Source: Snuella sedimenti (GTDB taxonomy: Bacteria; Bacteroidota; Bacteroidia; Flavobacteriales; Flavobacteriaceae). From it: a stretch of 64,000 bases of DNA. The notes beneath the pieces were generated by a model that made no database searches, was not told the origin of the DNA, and saw only the letters and a list, made by a program, of their open reading frames with translations. The stretch covers positions 62,001-126,000 of the forward strand of contig NZ_JAELVQ010000010.1 of NCBI RefSeq assembly GCF_016428595.1, in the 5' to 3' direction. Position numbers and translations under genes: made by a program. This document shows positions 6,918-63,959 of the stretch, in pieces (position 1 is the first letter of the stretch; the number at the start of each line of letters is the position of its first letter).

Positions 6918-6986
6918 AAGTGCCTGTCCTGGTCAAAGTTTGCATAAACTAATATCCATTTGAAAATCAAACTTTAGGGCAGGCTT
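6918..6986. terminator. Long bidirectional terminator hairpin
   Basis: AAG-GCCTG-CCT and CAAAGTTTG on the left pair with CAAACTTT-AGG-CAGGC-TT on the right. The right arm is followed by ATTTTTT on the + strand. It lies between the convergent His-rich gene and the YdeI-like gene, whose stop codon overlaps the right end. Confidence 0.65.
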
Positions 6987-7581
6987 ATTTTTTGTATCTG
7001 TCGTTTAGTCCAATACCCTGTAAAATAAGGGGTATGATCTTTTTTAACCGTGTTTGCAACGTGGTTTCTCTTTTCGCAGAACTAATATATTCGCAGAATT
7101 CACGTTGCTTATAGGGTGTTAAGGATTCAAAACAATTGTTTAGTGCTTCGTCTTTATCAAGACTATTTTTTAGAGTCTGCGGTATGGCAATTTCTTTTTT
7201 ATTCTTGTCTGGTTTTAGGACACGTCCTAATTTTTGGTTGTCTATTGCTTCTTTTATGTAATTTAAAACGATGGTTTTGTCAATTTCATCAATTGATTTA
7301 AATCGCATTTGGCGTAATGCCTTTGTTTTGTATTCTTGGGCATTTATTAAAAGATTATGATCATCCTTTAAAAATATACCATTAAAGAACCAAAGGCCAA
7401 AGTGTTGCTTAAAAGCACTTAGTCCAACAACATTTTTGTTGTTTAGAGTGTAAACAGGAGCGTTCCATTTGATGGTTTCTTCTAATTCTGTATTAATTAA
7501 GATATTTCGCAACACATGTAAGGCACTCGAAAAATGAGGATGCAATTCAATATAAGCTTCAACGGATGTTACCTTTTCCAC
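6985..7581 (-). CDS. DUF1801/YdeI-OmdA-like protein
   Basis: This 198-residue cytosolic protein combines an N-terminal DUF1801-like domain (ETIKWNAPVYTL, GLWFFNG) with a C-terminal YdeI/OmdA-type segment (EYISSAKRETTLQTRL), a combination common in Bacteroidota. The biochemical role of the family is unclear. The start is GTG, 11 bases after the stop of the sulfatase gene, so the two are probably co-transcribed. Confidence 0.8.
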   Translation of the reverse strand: MEKVTSVEAYIELHPHFSSALHVLRNILINTELEETIKWNAPVYTLNNKNVVGLSAFKQHFGLWFFNGIFLKDDHNLLINAQEYKTKALRQMRFKSIDEIDKTIVLNYIKEAIDNQKLGRVLKPDKNKKEIAIPQTLKNSLDKDEALNNCFESLTPYKQREFCEYISSAKRETTLQTRLKKIIPLILQGIGLNDRYKK

Positions 7582-7592
7582 ACGTTTTAAAT

Positions 7593-9062
7593 TTATTTAT
7601 AGAGCCCAGTATTTCCTTTTTCTAGTACAGGCATAAGTTTGTTGACAATACCTGGATGCTTAGAAGCAATATTAATGCTTTCCAAAGGATCGGTGTCATG
7701 ATCATATAGTTCGATAGTAGGCTCGGCTTTTCTAAAGTATTTTGTGAGTCTATAGCGCTCTGTTCTTAAGGAAATACCATTTTTAAAATAACTGTAGGCA
7801 ACATCATCTTGAGAAGAGGAATTGTTGTTGTTTAACAAGTTTATAAAACTTTCGCCATCTATGGGGTGTTTAGTATCCACATTGCACAGAGCCATTAAAG
7901 TGGGATAAATATCAACTGTTTCTACAATAGATGTAATAGGTTTTGTTTGTTTGCTGTTAGGTACTTTTATAATTAAAGTACTTTTCAAGGCATTTTCAAA
8001 AATGGTATGTTTCCCCCATACTTGTTGATCACCCAGATGCCATCCGTGGTCTCCCCATACCACAATAATGGTATTGTCGTCGAGTCCAAGTGCTTTAATT
8101 TCATCAATTATCGACCCAATTAAATGGTCTGTATAGCTAATGCAGGCATAGTAGGCATGTTTTAGTTGTTTTGTATAGCCATCGGATGCAGGCTGGTTAA
8201 GTGCAGGTTTTTCTTCTCCCAATTTATAACCGTTTAATTCGTGGCTGTTGTGTAAACTTTGTGGGTTGACATTTTGCGGGATTGCAGGATTGTCAGTGAT
8301 TGGAATGGCATCTCTGTTGTATAAGTCCCAGTACTTTTCGGGTGCTGTAAATGGCAAATGCGGTTTAAAGAGACCTACGCTTAGAAAAAATGGCTTTGTA
8401 TTTTTTTTGAGTTCTTTTAGTTTATCTATAGCTAATTGAGTAGTTAGACCATCTACATAACCAGTATCACTAACTTTTCCTTTTTCATAGGGTTTAACCT
8501 GTCTGTTCAAGCTTTGTCTGTTTTCACCATTGGCATAGCCAAAGAAAGCGTTCCAACCAGTTCGCCATTTCCCCGGATTAAAAATCAGTTCATCCCAGCT
8601 GTAGGGTAGTTCTCTTTTATTAGAAGGTTGTTCGGTATAGCCATAGAGAAGACCATCAGCAGAGTGACTAATTTTACCAATACCTACAGTATGGTAGCCA
8701 TTTCTCTTTAATTGATGAATAAAGGTTTCTGGAATATCTGTCTCGGGTTGGTTAGAGAGTACATGTTGGGTAATGTCATTTCCAAGATGGGCTTTTGTTG
8801 TTGGCCGCATACCAGTTAGTAAGCAATGTCTGGAAGCACCACAGGTAGGTACATTTACAAAATGGTTTTTAAACAAAAAACCTGTTGCTGCTAACTTATC
8901 AAGATTTGGAGATTGCACTACTGGGTTGTTATAACAGCCTAAATCCGTTCTTAAATCGTCTACAGCAATGAATACGATATTGGGTTTTTCATTTTGTTTG
9001 CCACATGATACCAATGTGGTTGTTGAAATAATAAATAACCTAAGTAGTGTTTTAATGAGCAT
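7593..9062 (-). CDS. Sulfatase (iduronate-2-sulfatase-like), lipoprotein
   Basis: This 489-residue arylsulfatase-superfamily protein has a lipoprotein signal (lipobox LVSC). The metal site is seen in VAVDDLRTDLG, and the formylglycine motif is CGASRHCLLTG, i.e. C-x-A-x-R rather than the commoner C-x-P-x-R; its Cys must be oxidised by a maturase that is not in this window. Distal metal ligands are in VVWGDHGWHLGDQ and the Lys in WGKHT. The family removes sulfate esters from polysaccharides such as algal sulfated glycans. The exact substrate is unknown. Confidence 0.9.
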   Translation of the reverse strand: MLIKTLLRLFIISTTTLVSCGKQNEKPNIVFIAVDDLRTDLGCYNNPVVQSPNLDKLAATGFLFKNHFVNVPTCGASRHCLLTGMRPTTKAHLGNDITQHVLSNQPETDIPETFIHQLKRNGYHTVGIGKISHSADGLLYGYTEQPSNKRELPYSWDELIFNPGKWRTGWNAFFGYANGENRQSLNRQVKPYEKGKVSDTGYVDGLTTQLAIDKLKELKKNTKPFFLSVGLFKPHLPFTAPEKYWDLYNRDAIPITDNPAIPQNVNPQSLHNSHELNGYKLGEEKPALNQPASDGYTKQLKHAYYACISYTDHLIGSIIDEIKALGLDDNTIIVVWGDHGWHLGDQQVWGKHTIFENALKSTLIIKVPNSKQTKPITSIVETVDIYPTLMALCNVDTKHPIDGESFINLLNNNNSSSQDDVAYSYFKNGISLRTERYRLTKYFRKAEPTIELYDHDTDPLESINIASKHPGIVNKLMPVLEKGNTGLYK

Positions 9063-15411: not shown

Positions 15412-15444
15412 TTGTTTATAAAAGTAAATAATTCAATACTTTTG
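15412..15444 (+). promoter_or_regulatory. Promoter of the FMN-binding operon leader
   Basis: TTG (15412-15414), 22 bases and TACTTTTG (15437-15444). The first leader ATG follows at 15449, close to the expected transcription start. Confidence 0.7.
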
Positions 15445-15448
15445 CCAC

Positions 15449-15502
15449 ATGAAACGAGCATTAAGAAATTTTAAAAATTACTTCACAAAAGGAAATGTTT
15501 AA
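15449..15502 (+). CDS. Possible upstream leader ORF (17 aa), copy 1
   Basis: MKRALRNFKNYFTKGNV begins four bases after the -7 element and overlaps the start of the conserved 18-aa ORF by eight bases. In copy 2 the equivalent ATG is in frame with the 18-aa ORF, giving one 33-aa peptide; here a one-base insertion separates them. It may be translated and coupled, or be decayed. Confidence 0.3.
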   Translation: MKRALRNFKNYFTKGNV

Positions 15503-15551
15503 AATTTTTAATGAGAGAACGAGTGTAGGGAGTGGTTGCACACGTTCTTAA
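15495..15551 (+). CDS. Conserved 18-aa leader peptide, copy 1
   Basis: MFKIFNERTSVGSGCTRS. Copy 2 encodes MFKIFNERTSVRSGCTRS, one residue different, although the two downstream proteins are unrelated. AAGGAA sits just before the ATG. The last codons, including the single Cys codon (15537-15539), form the 3' arm of hairpin A and the 5' arm of pairing B, so translation of this ORF should control access to the GTG start at 15597. Confidence 0.6.
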   Translation: MFKIFNERTSVGSGCTRS

Positions 15552-15596
15552 TTTTATAATTACAATAAAATCAATTAATTACTAAAATTTAAACGT

Positions 15597-16124
15597 GTGA
15601 AATTTAAACCCGTTTTTATATTGCTTTTAGCAGTTGTTATGTACTCTTTTGGCTTGCCAAAAACTATTCAGAAAAAAGTGGATGCTGCAATAAAGGATGC
15701 TTTTAATATTGAAACGTTCCATTTTACGAATGTTCGAATTCTCGATGAGGATACTAAAGACTTGCCTTCTCAATTTGGGGAAGACAACCTGTTTAAAATA
15801 ACTGTTGATGATGCGCTTTTAGGTTATGCCTATGTGGCTAAAGCTCCGAGTAAAACGGATGAATTTGATTATTTGGTATTATTGGATAAGGACTTGATTG
15901 TTTTAAAGACAAAGGTGCTAGTATATCGAGAAGATTATGGAGGAGAAATTGGAAGCAAACGTTGGTTGAAACAATTTATAGGTAAAAAAGAAGGAGATGC
16001 CCTAAGATATGGAGATAATATCGTTGCTATCTCTGGAGCCACTATTTCTGTACGTTCCATGACCAATGCCATGAATAATTTATTACAATCATTAAAAATA
16101 CTTCACTCTAAAAATATCTTGTAA
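15597..16124 (+). CDS. FMN-binding domain protein, exported
   Basis: This 175-residue protein has an N-terminal signal or anchor (residues 5-20) and an FMN_bind domain. Its SGATIS motif (residues 146-151) is the covalent flavinylation signature, with Thr149 the likely FMN acceptor; an ApbE transferase would be needed and is not in this window. Such domains carry electrons on the outer face of the inner membrane. GTG is the start and lies inside a predicted stem. The next gene begins at the very next base. Confidence 0.85.
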   Translation: MKFKPVFILLLAVVMYSFGLPKTIQKKVDAAIKDAFNIETFHFTNVRILDEDTKDLPSQFGEDNLFKITVDDALLGYAYVAKAPSKTDEFDYLVLLDKDLIVLKTKVLVYREDYGGEIGSKRWLKQFIGKKEGDALRYGDNIVAISGATISVRSMTNAMNNLLQSLKILHSKNIL

Positions 16125-63122: not shown

Positions 63123-63812
63123 TTAATATTTTAAAATTGGATAACCATTTTGACAAGCTATAGATTTGGGCTCTTGTGGTATATCGCAGGTAGATGTGAT
63201 AGACCATTTAATATTATACTGTTTTTCAGCAAGGTTATAAGCTTCAATTTTCTGAAAAAATAAAGACGTATCAATTTGATTGGAATATGCGATATACCCT
63301 TGTGGTCCGCCACATGCTTTCGCTCCATAGGGCGTATAGTTCCAATCAGTTGGATCGGTACAAGAAACACTATTGGATAGGCTGCTAATTCCGTTGAATA
63401 AAAGCATTAATTCCCGATGGTCTTTTTCTTGTTCGGATAGCTCTCGTTTTACAATTAACTGTTCGTCGTCAATTGAAATGATTCTTAGGTTGTAATTTCC
63501 TGGGAAATTTAGATCGGTTATTAAAATAAGGGATTCTTGGGTTTCCCAAGCACCTGTTTCATCATAAAAAGTTAAGGGCGGTGTGCCACACCATCCAGAT
63601 GTTCTTTGAGTAAAAATGGCATTTTTTTGAAACGATACACCGGGTGCATTGTCTTGTAGTTTAGAAGCCCGTTGGTAAATGGTTGTTTCATTCTCATATT
63701 TTGGGGCAATCCAATTACCAATAAGTAAATTTTCTGGATCTATATCAATATCTGAGTTACTTTGACAGGAAAAAAGGCATAAAGCCAGAGGTAGCAAATA
63801 GAATATTTTCAC
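63123..63812 (-). CDS. Cys-containing lipoprotein of unknown function
   Basis: 229 residues with a lipobox (LFSC, residue 16) and five further Cys (in SGWCGTPP, SVSCTDP, AKACGGPQ, TSTCDIPQ and IACQNGY) that could form disulphides. No family recognised. GTG is the start and belongs to the conserved leader element also found before the FMN-binding gene, so the two should share post-transcriptional control. Confidence 0.75.
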   Translation of the reverse strand: MKIFYLLPLALCLFSCQSNSDIDIDPENLLIGNWIAPKYENETTIYQRASKLQDNAPGVSFQKNAIFTQRTSGWCGTPPLTFYDETGAWETQESLILITDLNFPGNYNLRIISIDDEQLIVKRELSEQEKDHRELMLLFNGISSLSNSVSCTDPTDWNYTPYGAKACGGPQGYIAYSNQIDTSLFFQKIEAYNLAEKQYNIKWSITSTCDIPQEPKSIACQNGYPILKY

Positions 63813-63959
63813 ACGTTTAAATTTTAGTAATTAATTGATTTTATTGTAGTTATAAAATTAAGAACGTGTGCAACCACTCCTTACACTCGTTCTCTCATTA
63901 AAAATCTTAAACATTTCCTGTTGTGAAAAATGCTTAAATTTTATTAATGTTCGTTTCAT
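63810..63959 (-). repeat. Leader element, copy 2 (inverted copy of 15449-15599)
   Basis: This 150-base stretch reads on the reverse strand almost exactly as copy 1, from the leader ATG to the GTG start of the downstream gene. Both pairings are kept: AGAAC..GTTCT with GTGT..ACAC at the end of the leader ORF, and CACACGTT with AACGTGTG over the start codon (63817-63810). Upstream of it (63960-64000) I see no consensus TAnnTTTG promoter. Confidence 0.85.
63858..63959 (-). CDS. Leader peptide, copy 2 (33 aa; conserved last 18 aa)
   Basis: The ORF reads MKRTLIKFKHFSQQE followed by MFKIFNERTSVRSGCTRS. An internal ATG (63914) gives the same 18-aa peptide as copy 1. The 18 residues differ from copy 1 only at the Arg/Gly position, while the DNA upstream varies more and has a one-base length difference, which suggests selection on the short ORF or on its RNA structure. 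Confidence 0.6.
   Translation of the reverse strand: MKRTLIKFKHFSQQEMFKIFNERTSVRSGCTRS

Follow-up and report, generated by a model that had tools for sequence, protein, structure and literature searches.

PATEs are non-autonomous derivatives of IS200/IS605 elements, and REP sequences and REPINs are short palindromic repeats associated with a RAYT transposase. For IS608, a guide (GR) 5' of a hairpin is described as pairing with the cleavage sequence (CR) 3' of this hairpin (PMC5934647). Repeats of the Correia/RUP type fuse to open reading frames (ORFs) or stay intergenic, with no mention of a new start codon in the excerpt (PMC2229807), and TAACTGA direct repeats in Beggiatoaceae and some Bacteroidetes are, again according to an excerpt, situated immediately upstream of start codons (PMC4679880). 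Here, we describe a repeat of approximately 150 bp from Snuella sedimenti (approximately 140–150 bp in most other genomes) that we regard, with a probability of roughly 80 %, as a non-autonomous mobile element which targets ATGAAA and takes over start codons. Its peculiarity, in this reading, lies in the start codons that it usurps and in an internal guide that co-evolves with the new start.

The window, i. e., the whole stretch of 64,000 nucleotides that was analysed, contains two copies, copy 1 at 15449–15599 on the forward and copy 2 at 63810–63959 on the reverse strand, with 92.7 % identity over an alignment of 151 bases. Their features are as follows:

15437–15444, + strand: TAnnTTTG promoter −7 box TACTTTTG, ending 4 nt before the left ATG
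15449–15602, + strand: element copy 1 with its target, delimited by the sharp ends common to the fetched copies and by the promoter box position in orthologs
15449–15451, + strand: left ATG of copy 1, the native start codon of the FMN-binding gene
15459–15513, + strand: H1, left imperfect palindrome (25-nt arms 15459–15483 and 15489–15513, 76 % complementary)
15515–15548, + strand: H2, middle hairpin GAGAACG..CGTTCTY, which would compete with the guide/right-end pairing
15539–15546, + strand: guide octamer b, CACACGTT, in the 3' arm of H2, covarying with the right end
15550–15589, + strand: H3, right hairpin (arms 15550–15562 and 15576–15589)
15592–15599, + strand: right-end octamer c, AACGTGTG, including the new GTG start codon
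15597–15599, + strand: new GTG start of copy 1, followed by AAA
15597–16124, + strand: host gene of copy 1, an FMN-binding domain protein (PF04205, E 1.8e-07) that begins with GTG AAA
63807–63959, − strand: element copy 2 with its target (ATG 63957–63959, element, GTG 63810–63812, AAA 63807–63809)
63863–63870, − strand: guide octamer of copy 2
63810–63817, − strand: right-end octamer of copy 2, including its GTG start
63123–63812, − strand: host gene of copy 2, a 229-aa Cys-rich protein with a lipoprotein-like N-terminus and no Pfam match

An earlier note on this DNA had pointed to two near-identical sequences of about 150 bp in front of two genes, to an 18-residue ORF ending in SGCTRS in each, to a hairpin together with a perfect pairing of two octamers, and to GTG starts for both downstream ORFs, and all of these descriptions were borne out. 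The ORF reads MFKIFNERTSV(G/R)SGCTRS, the hairpin is present in both copies, the octamer CACACGTT (15539–15546 and 63863–63870) pairs with AACGTGTG (15592–15599 and 63810–63817, respectively), and the downstream ORFs start at 15597 and 63812. In copy 2, an ORF of 33 residues opened by the outer ATG passes in frame through the 18-residue ORF. With up to three mismatches allowed, the hairpin pattern matched twice in the window versus not once in 100 shuffles, so the pair is not due to chance. Seen as a single strand, copy 1 contains two large palindromes, 15459–15513 and 15536–15602, the second of which joins guide b, H3 and right-end octamer c (arms 15536–15562 and 15576–15602). A likeness to the right end with five mismatches was also noted at 7576–7599 on the reverse strand, at the GTG start of the ORF 6985–7581, and may be due to chance.

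The repeat and its spread are directly observed. Searched against the whole genome (4.37 Mb, 57 contigs), copy 1 gave at least 42 BLAST matches, 40 of them with 94–100 % identity (40 of 160 candidates were scored), and pattern searches found 50 hairpins (up to three mismatches; reversed control 0), 93 right ends AATTACTAAAATTTAAACGYGTGAAA (up to three mismatches; control 0) and 88 left ends (control 2). Among the 73 comparable own copies with both ends, 42 are 93.3–100 % identical to copy 1 and the other 31 are older, which indicates a recent burst on top of older copies. With about 90 copies in the genome, a private duplication of a leader is ruled out, and the two window genes most probably owe the sequence to a mobile element that inserted at the start of each rather than to shared regulation. 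The further copies in related genomes that the earlier note had proposed to look for exist: the right end (up to two mismatches) turned up in 37 of the 397 genomes sampled within the family, presumably the Flavobacteriaceae, the own genome included, with all controls at 0. Allowing a GTG or ATG start, it was found in none of 286 genomes outside the family (the control gave one match, in G618) and in none of the eight other family members in that sample. The genera of the element-bearing contigs (Aquimarina, Seonamhaeicola, Arenibacter, Tenacibaculum, Maribacter, and others) presumably all belong to the Flavobacteriaceae; the records of the contig scan are assigned to this family or to the listed genera, with one metagenome-assembled genome labelled only Bacteroidia. 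Plasmid or phage cargo was dismissed, as the element was absent from the plasmids searched and had no exact-pattern match in viral contigs; as far as searched, it is chromosomal. A single 44-bp match was seen in a Pelagibacter phage. A known RNA family was likewise discarded, given no Rfam match above the gathering score in the window (the best permissive match reached 18.5 bits against a cut-off of 80), and literature searches (with subscription papers and preprints outside their scope) found no title or abstract opening that describes such an element.

The ends, the target and the new start codon can be read directly from the copies. Sharp ends are visible in the flanks of 30, then 50, copies, and the counts below refer to copies with both ends, 52 from the own and 89 from other genomes; those without a recognisable left end, or without an anchor after the guide, were excluded from the respective counts. 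ATGAAA forms the left junction of 49/52 own copies and of 74/89 copies from elsewhere. At the right junction, GTG occurs 45 times, ATG five times and GTA twice among the own copies, as compared to 69 GTG, 18 ATG, one TTG and one GTA elsewhere, and the following codon is AAA in 49/52 and 86/89 copies, respectively. An arrangement with ATGAAA on the left and RTGAAA on the right is compatible with no duplication at all, but also with a target duplication or recombination core of 5 bp (TGAAA). Sites with AAAC ahead of the left ATG are weakly preferred, with C favoured at −3 and −1, while a C at −1 is found in only 3 of 53 ATGAAA gene starts of the own genome. In two nested cases (L020 and L045), one copy is joined at the RTGAAA of another, showing that older copies are themselves targets.

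An ORF of 60 codons or more begins at the right end in 33 of the 52 own copies (the other 19 have none of this length) and in 85 of the 89 copies from other genomes. The matches listed for the named genomes, some of them orthologs of one another, include 82 right ends, and 80 of these open such an ORF at the RTG; of the two exceptions, one runs off its locus (L169) and the other opens an ORF of 29 codons (L217). Since RTGAA was required in the pattern, the contig scan (matches listed) favours copies with an intact start. Judged by their N-termini, the host genes are what we take to be, for example, murB, pgk, dnaN, dut, dnaJ, and the gene for aspartokinase. In 400 kb of the own genome, ATGAAA occurs 594 times; 70 of these sites lie at or close to a gene start, 83 between genes, and 441 within genes. 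An ORF is opened by 27 of 42 burst copies versus 70 of 153 start-or-intergenic ATGAAA sites in these 400 kb (p = 0.019, with criteria that are not identical), and a targeting of gene starts beyond tolerance was therefore not built upon. Older own copies open an ORF in 23 of 31 cases, which is not different from the burst copies.

Several copies are altered. At the gene starts in L126, L142, L147, and L164, there are deletion forms of approximately 30–55 bp that lack the hairpins and have the left end fused to the right, perhaps through the shared AAATTT(T)AAA, and another such form lies in the left flank of L020. In L180 (1855–2165), a copy is interrupted within H1 by another insertion with inverted ends GGGTTACCCATTTAG.., and additional G+C-rich palindromes are inserted in H1 or H2 in L108, L127, and L143.

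Empty sites are directly visible for one gene, namely the FMN-binding gene, on which the empty-site argument rests. It has a match in 43 of 120 sampled genomes of the family, and 29 orthologs were read besides the own gene. None of these 29 has the right end at its start codon; a hairpin-like match lies further upstream of the start in one ortholog (L261). Thirteen of the 29 start with ATGAAA, and in 17 the end of a TAnnTTTG box is exactly 4 nt away from the native start (5 nt in two, not near in ten). In the window, the same box ends 4 nt before the left ATG of the element. As this spacing is identical for the native ATG of the orthologs and for the left ATG, the element appears to have landed on the start codon and to have provided a new one. 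Within 40 nt of the left ATG, the box is found in 2/52 own and 8/89 other copies, with 142/5340 for random 40-mers. In F. psychrophilum, according to an excerpt, the TAnnTTTG promoter box lies at −12 to −5 (PMC9723704), and the transcript of the FMN-binding gene is thus predicted to begin at the A of the left ATG. The native gene would accordingly have been leaderless, and the element would now constitute its 5' untranslated region (UTR).

These sites also bear on the notion that we are dealing with a family of vertically inherited, cis-regulatory 5' UTRs that do not move. Related species do share copies at orthologous genes, as such a family would lead one to expect, but it would have to accommodate a single genome with 42 near-identical copies that precede unrelated genes or lie between genes, nested copies, orthologous starts without the element, and a patchy distribution over 37 of 397 genomes. 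An inherited, non-mobile family is hence strongly disfavoured and, in our estimate, scarcely credible. The mobile element is our preferred reading.

The consensus of 89 distinct sequences from other genomes comprises the hairpins H1, H2, and H3 as well as a closing helix of 3 bp. Most consensus pairs form in more than 90 % of the sequences, and double changes exist but are few (columns 101/128: A–T in 78 and T–A in 8; columns 15/63: T–A in 79, C–G in 3, and A–T in 2). Changes in guide b and right-end octamer c go together, as in the variants CACACGTT/AACGTGTG, CATACGTT/AACGTATG, CATTCGTT/AACGAATG, and CATGCGTT/AACGCATG, which were collected with a loose anchor that admits some false rows. A stricter anchor left 164 copies, in which the third base of b and the first base of the start were C/G in 111, T/G in 13, C/A in 4, T/A in 32, and others in 4 cases (relatedness ignored), i. 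e., a GTG start goes with CAC in the guide and an ATG start with CAT. A tree from which b and c had been left out gave 18 independent contrasts in the start base, of which 10 are concordant, none is discordant, and 8 are uninformative; the covariation of the pairing over the downstream start, which the earlier note had suggested to check, is thus confirmed. Among 44 positions around b, b3 alone changed in this one-way manner (C to T ten times, G to T once), and a second variable base gave six contrasts, three of them complementary on both sides. The pairing is therefore real and under constraint, which indicates that it matters to the element. The guide was also considered as recognising the target and rejected in this role: the C preference at −3/−1 is not predicted by the guide, the preferred target AACACATG shows no dependence on the guide class, and no guide match emerged at the left end or target.

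Part of the regulatory interpretation in the earlier note thus stands, as the pairing that can bury the start is constrained, while its other part, a conserved translated leader, does not. The second ORF ends in SGCTRS* in 34 of 52 own copies and in only 2 of 89 copies from other genomes, and the outer ATG, where present, opens a 17-residue ORF in 44/49 own and 31/77 other copies. Element lengths in other genomes lie between 125 and 171 and do not go up in threes, and the lengths of the leader and of the second ORF vary widely, as does the frame. The SGCTRS peptide belongs to the burst and not to the family. Stalling at the Cys codon, which the earlier note had raised as a possibility, is purely conjectural. 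Nor is the use of GTG by both window genes, which had been thought necessary for the pairing, a rule, since ATG is found in 18/89 other and 5/52 own copies, usually along with a CAT guide.

Could the covariation, then, reflect a translational switch, in which the guide pairs either within H2 (start free) or with the right end (start buried), with the balance set by a ribosome on the upstream ORF or by another signal, and with an element that spread as a portable riboregulator? The covariation of guide and start codon itself would fit, and folding gives median differences between buried and free RNA forms of +0.3 (own copies, n=83) and +0.2 kcal/mol (others, n=105), so that a switch is physically possible. 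In 11 of 13 orthologous pairs, moreover, the copies are better conserved than their upstream flank, and in 9 of 13 better than the DNA of the gene, figures that come from non-independent pairs and for which gene conversion is a possible cause. In F. johnsoniae, as stated in an excerpt, initiation is tuned by structure near start codons (PMC6847099), which likewise speaks for a switch. On the other hand, the upstream peptide and frame are not conserved, and copies from other genomes retain a pairing of at least 7/8 in 76 of 85 cases if they have a left end versus 9 of 20 if they lack it, a comparison in which age and some chance right ends are confounding factors. Furthermore, the hairpin-less forms of 30 to 55 bp at gene starts (L126, L142, L147, L164) indicate that genes do without the hairpins, and the host genes are, as far as we can assume from their N-termini, functionally mixed and include housekeeping functions. 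We therefore consider a switch as the origin of the repeat improbable and favour movement as the cause of the covariation, although an effect on expression may exist as well.

What moves the element was approached via its possible enzymes. Among the loci and matches listed, no copy encloses a gene or flanks a transposase gene, and the left and right ends in G000, G066, G247, G166, and G400 bracket no gene among the matches listed. Long left–right distances in L180, L195, and L202 were inspected as candidates for an autonomous copy and dismissed, as they look like another insertion or chance left ends. Three Y1 queries returned nothing in the ORFs of the examined loci from L096 on. The Y1 transposase domain PF01797 was present in 7 of 20 genomes with the element versus 13 of 20 without, and it had no match in G066 (13 right ends) or G247 (15 right ends). 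The own genome has six Y1 matches, and those that were read have other ends or contexts; its IS200 copies were discarded as a source because their ends differ by eye. Three copies or fragments of IS200-type insertion sequences that were read (L089, L090, L092) have different ends of their own. A RAYT as mobiliser was equally rejected, as it has no link to the repeat and the comparison of genomes with and without the element shows none. One RAYT-like gene (L088:1863–2429 and flanks) lies beside AACCTGACAGGT palindromes, which form a separate REP-like repeat. Reverse transcriptases (group II intron, retron) were set aside, with PF00078 in three of eight element genomes (G000, G400, G108) and no match in G066, G247, G166, G082, or G106. 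Tyrosine recombinases, finally, were found in all eight element genomes examined and also in all 14 control genomes, and their presence therefore says little; the own genome has 14 matches to them. The element may owe its movement to a recombinase of the host, to an enzyme that some genomes have since lost, or to another enzyme class.

A host enzyme would fit site-specific recombination, in which a tyrosine (or serine) recombinase encoded by the host would insert a circular form, whose core is TGAAA, into ATGAAA without any part for a single-strand transposase. This could account for TGAAA on both sides of nearly all copies and for head-to-tail nested copies, and of the three enzyme families only the tyrosine recombinases occur in all eight genomes, including the small G066 (4 matches). 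Yet they match all 14 control genomes as well, the flanks contain no recognisable pair of arm sites beyond ATGAAA and the weak upstream preference, and the covariation of guide and right end is left unexplained. Such a route is conceivable but rather unlikely.

For the element that takes over start codons, we propose the following course. The target, ATGAAA, is in practice very often the beginning of a gene. After insertion, the native ATG (with AAA) would stay behind on the left side of the element, and the right end would bring a new RTG as its last codon, directly before AAA, the second codon of the gene. The reading frame would be kept, the gene would begin with the GTG (or ATG) supplied by the element, and transcription driven by the native promoter and upstream region would give an RNA with the element as its 5' part. 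Owing to the start codon that the element supplies, genes can survive the insertion. In DNA, the pairing of guide and right end may be the means by which the right cleavage site is recognised when the element transposes as a single strand, like GR/CR of IS200/IS605; such a single-strand, IS200/IS605-like mechanism, which we base on this analogy, is the more tentative part of the overall statement, with somewhat less than even chances. In mRNA, the same pairing could cover the new start codon, with H2 as the competitor. Where it lies on a start codon, the right end may be kept as the start region of the gene, and copies elsewhere would decay.

Going further, the repeat might represent a class of start-codon-homing mobile DNA, in which one and the same pairing serves both DNA movement and a start switch in mRNA, spread over unrelated and even essential genes. 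We regard this wider view as doubtful; if true, a selfish element spreads ready-made translational control. A second, unrelated repeat of approximately 90–120 bp (family B) was also seen, which ends in ..AAACAGATG|AAA and in most cases contains CATCTG, complementary to CAGATG. There are 19 places in the fetched DNA that resemble its right end, not all with the hexamer, including sites around position 17257 in L278, 1677 in L081, 5488 in L216, and 4665 in L173. What we take to be a CRISPR operon (L087:1941–4168; G000:C2:1–5000) carries a RAYT-like Y1 gene between a cas9-like ORF and cas1; presumably, a family B copy and then an old family A copy follow between cas1 and cas2, with the repeat array thereafter, and the presumed cas2-like ORF starts at the GTG of the element. 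A family B whose CATCTG pairs with its own right end CAGATG would make start-codon homing a lifestyle rather than the feature of one family.

An insertion at a start codon would be expected mostly to break the gene, whereas here target and end fit in such a way that the gene continues. The native ATG remains as a false start, and annotation pipelines may misplace starts or report "leader ORFs". A class of apparently shared leaders in flavobacterial genomes would thereby be explained away, and the repeat would represent a case of a mobile element that lives on essential genes, with an internal pairing that co-evolves with the start codon of the host.

In comparison with known systems, the repeat shares with leader-peptide attenuators a short upstream ORF and mutually exclusive hairpins near the start codon, but its peptide and frame vary and its host genes are unrelated. 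Like MITEs (e. g., Correia elements and RUP), it is small, non-autonomous, dispersed, and structured; unlike these, it has no inverted repeat that joins its outer ends (20 and 11 inverted pairs were found in the two window copies, respectively, none of which does so), and its site is a single hexamer. The TAACTGA repeats, too, lie immediately upstream of start codons; they are, however, tandem repeats of 7 nt for which the excerpt describes no replaced start codon (PMC4679880). REP/REPIN sequences with their RAYT are likewise short, palindromic, chromosomal, geneless, present in many copies, and possibly moved in trans, but the present repeat differs by its start-codon target and the new start codon, and the two RAYT-like genes seen here adjoin or contain other palindromes. 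As for IS200/IS605, the differences lie in a guide pairing of 8 bp instead of 4 nt, in ATGAAA as the target, in a right end that bears a start codon, and in the lack of a Y1 gene inside any copy seen and of Y1 co-occurrence. An imperfect palindrome at each end is common to both, and subterminal ones were indeed found here, with H1 and H3 preserved across the alignment of 89 sequences from other genomes. A short fixed target retained in the left flank may be a further shared trait, and the topology of the right end, guide–hairpin–end, corresponds to GR–IPR–CR of IS608 as given in the excerpt (PMC5934647), here with a pairing that covaries.
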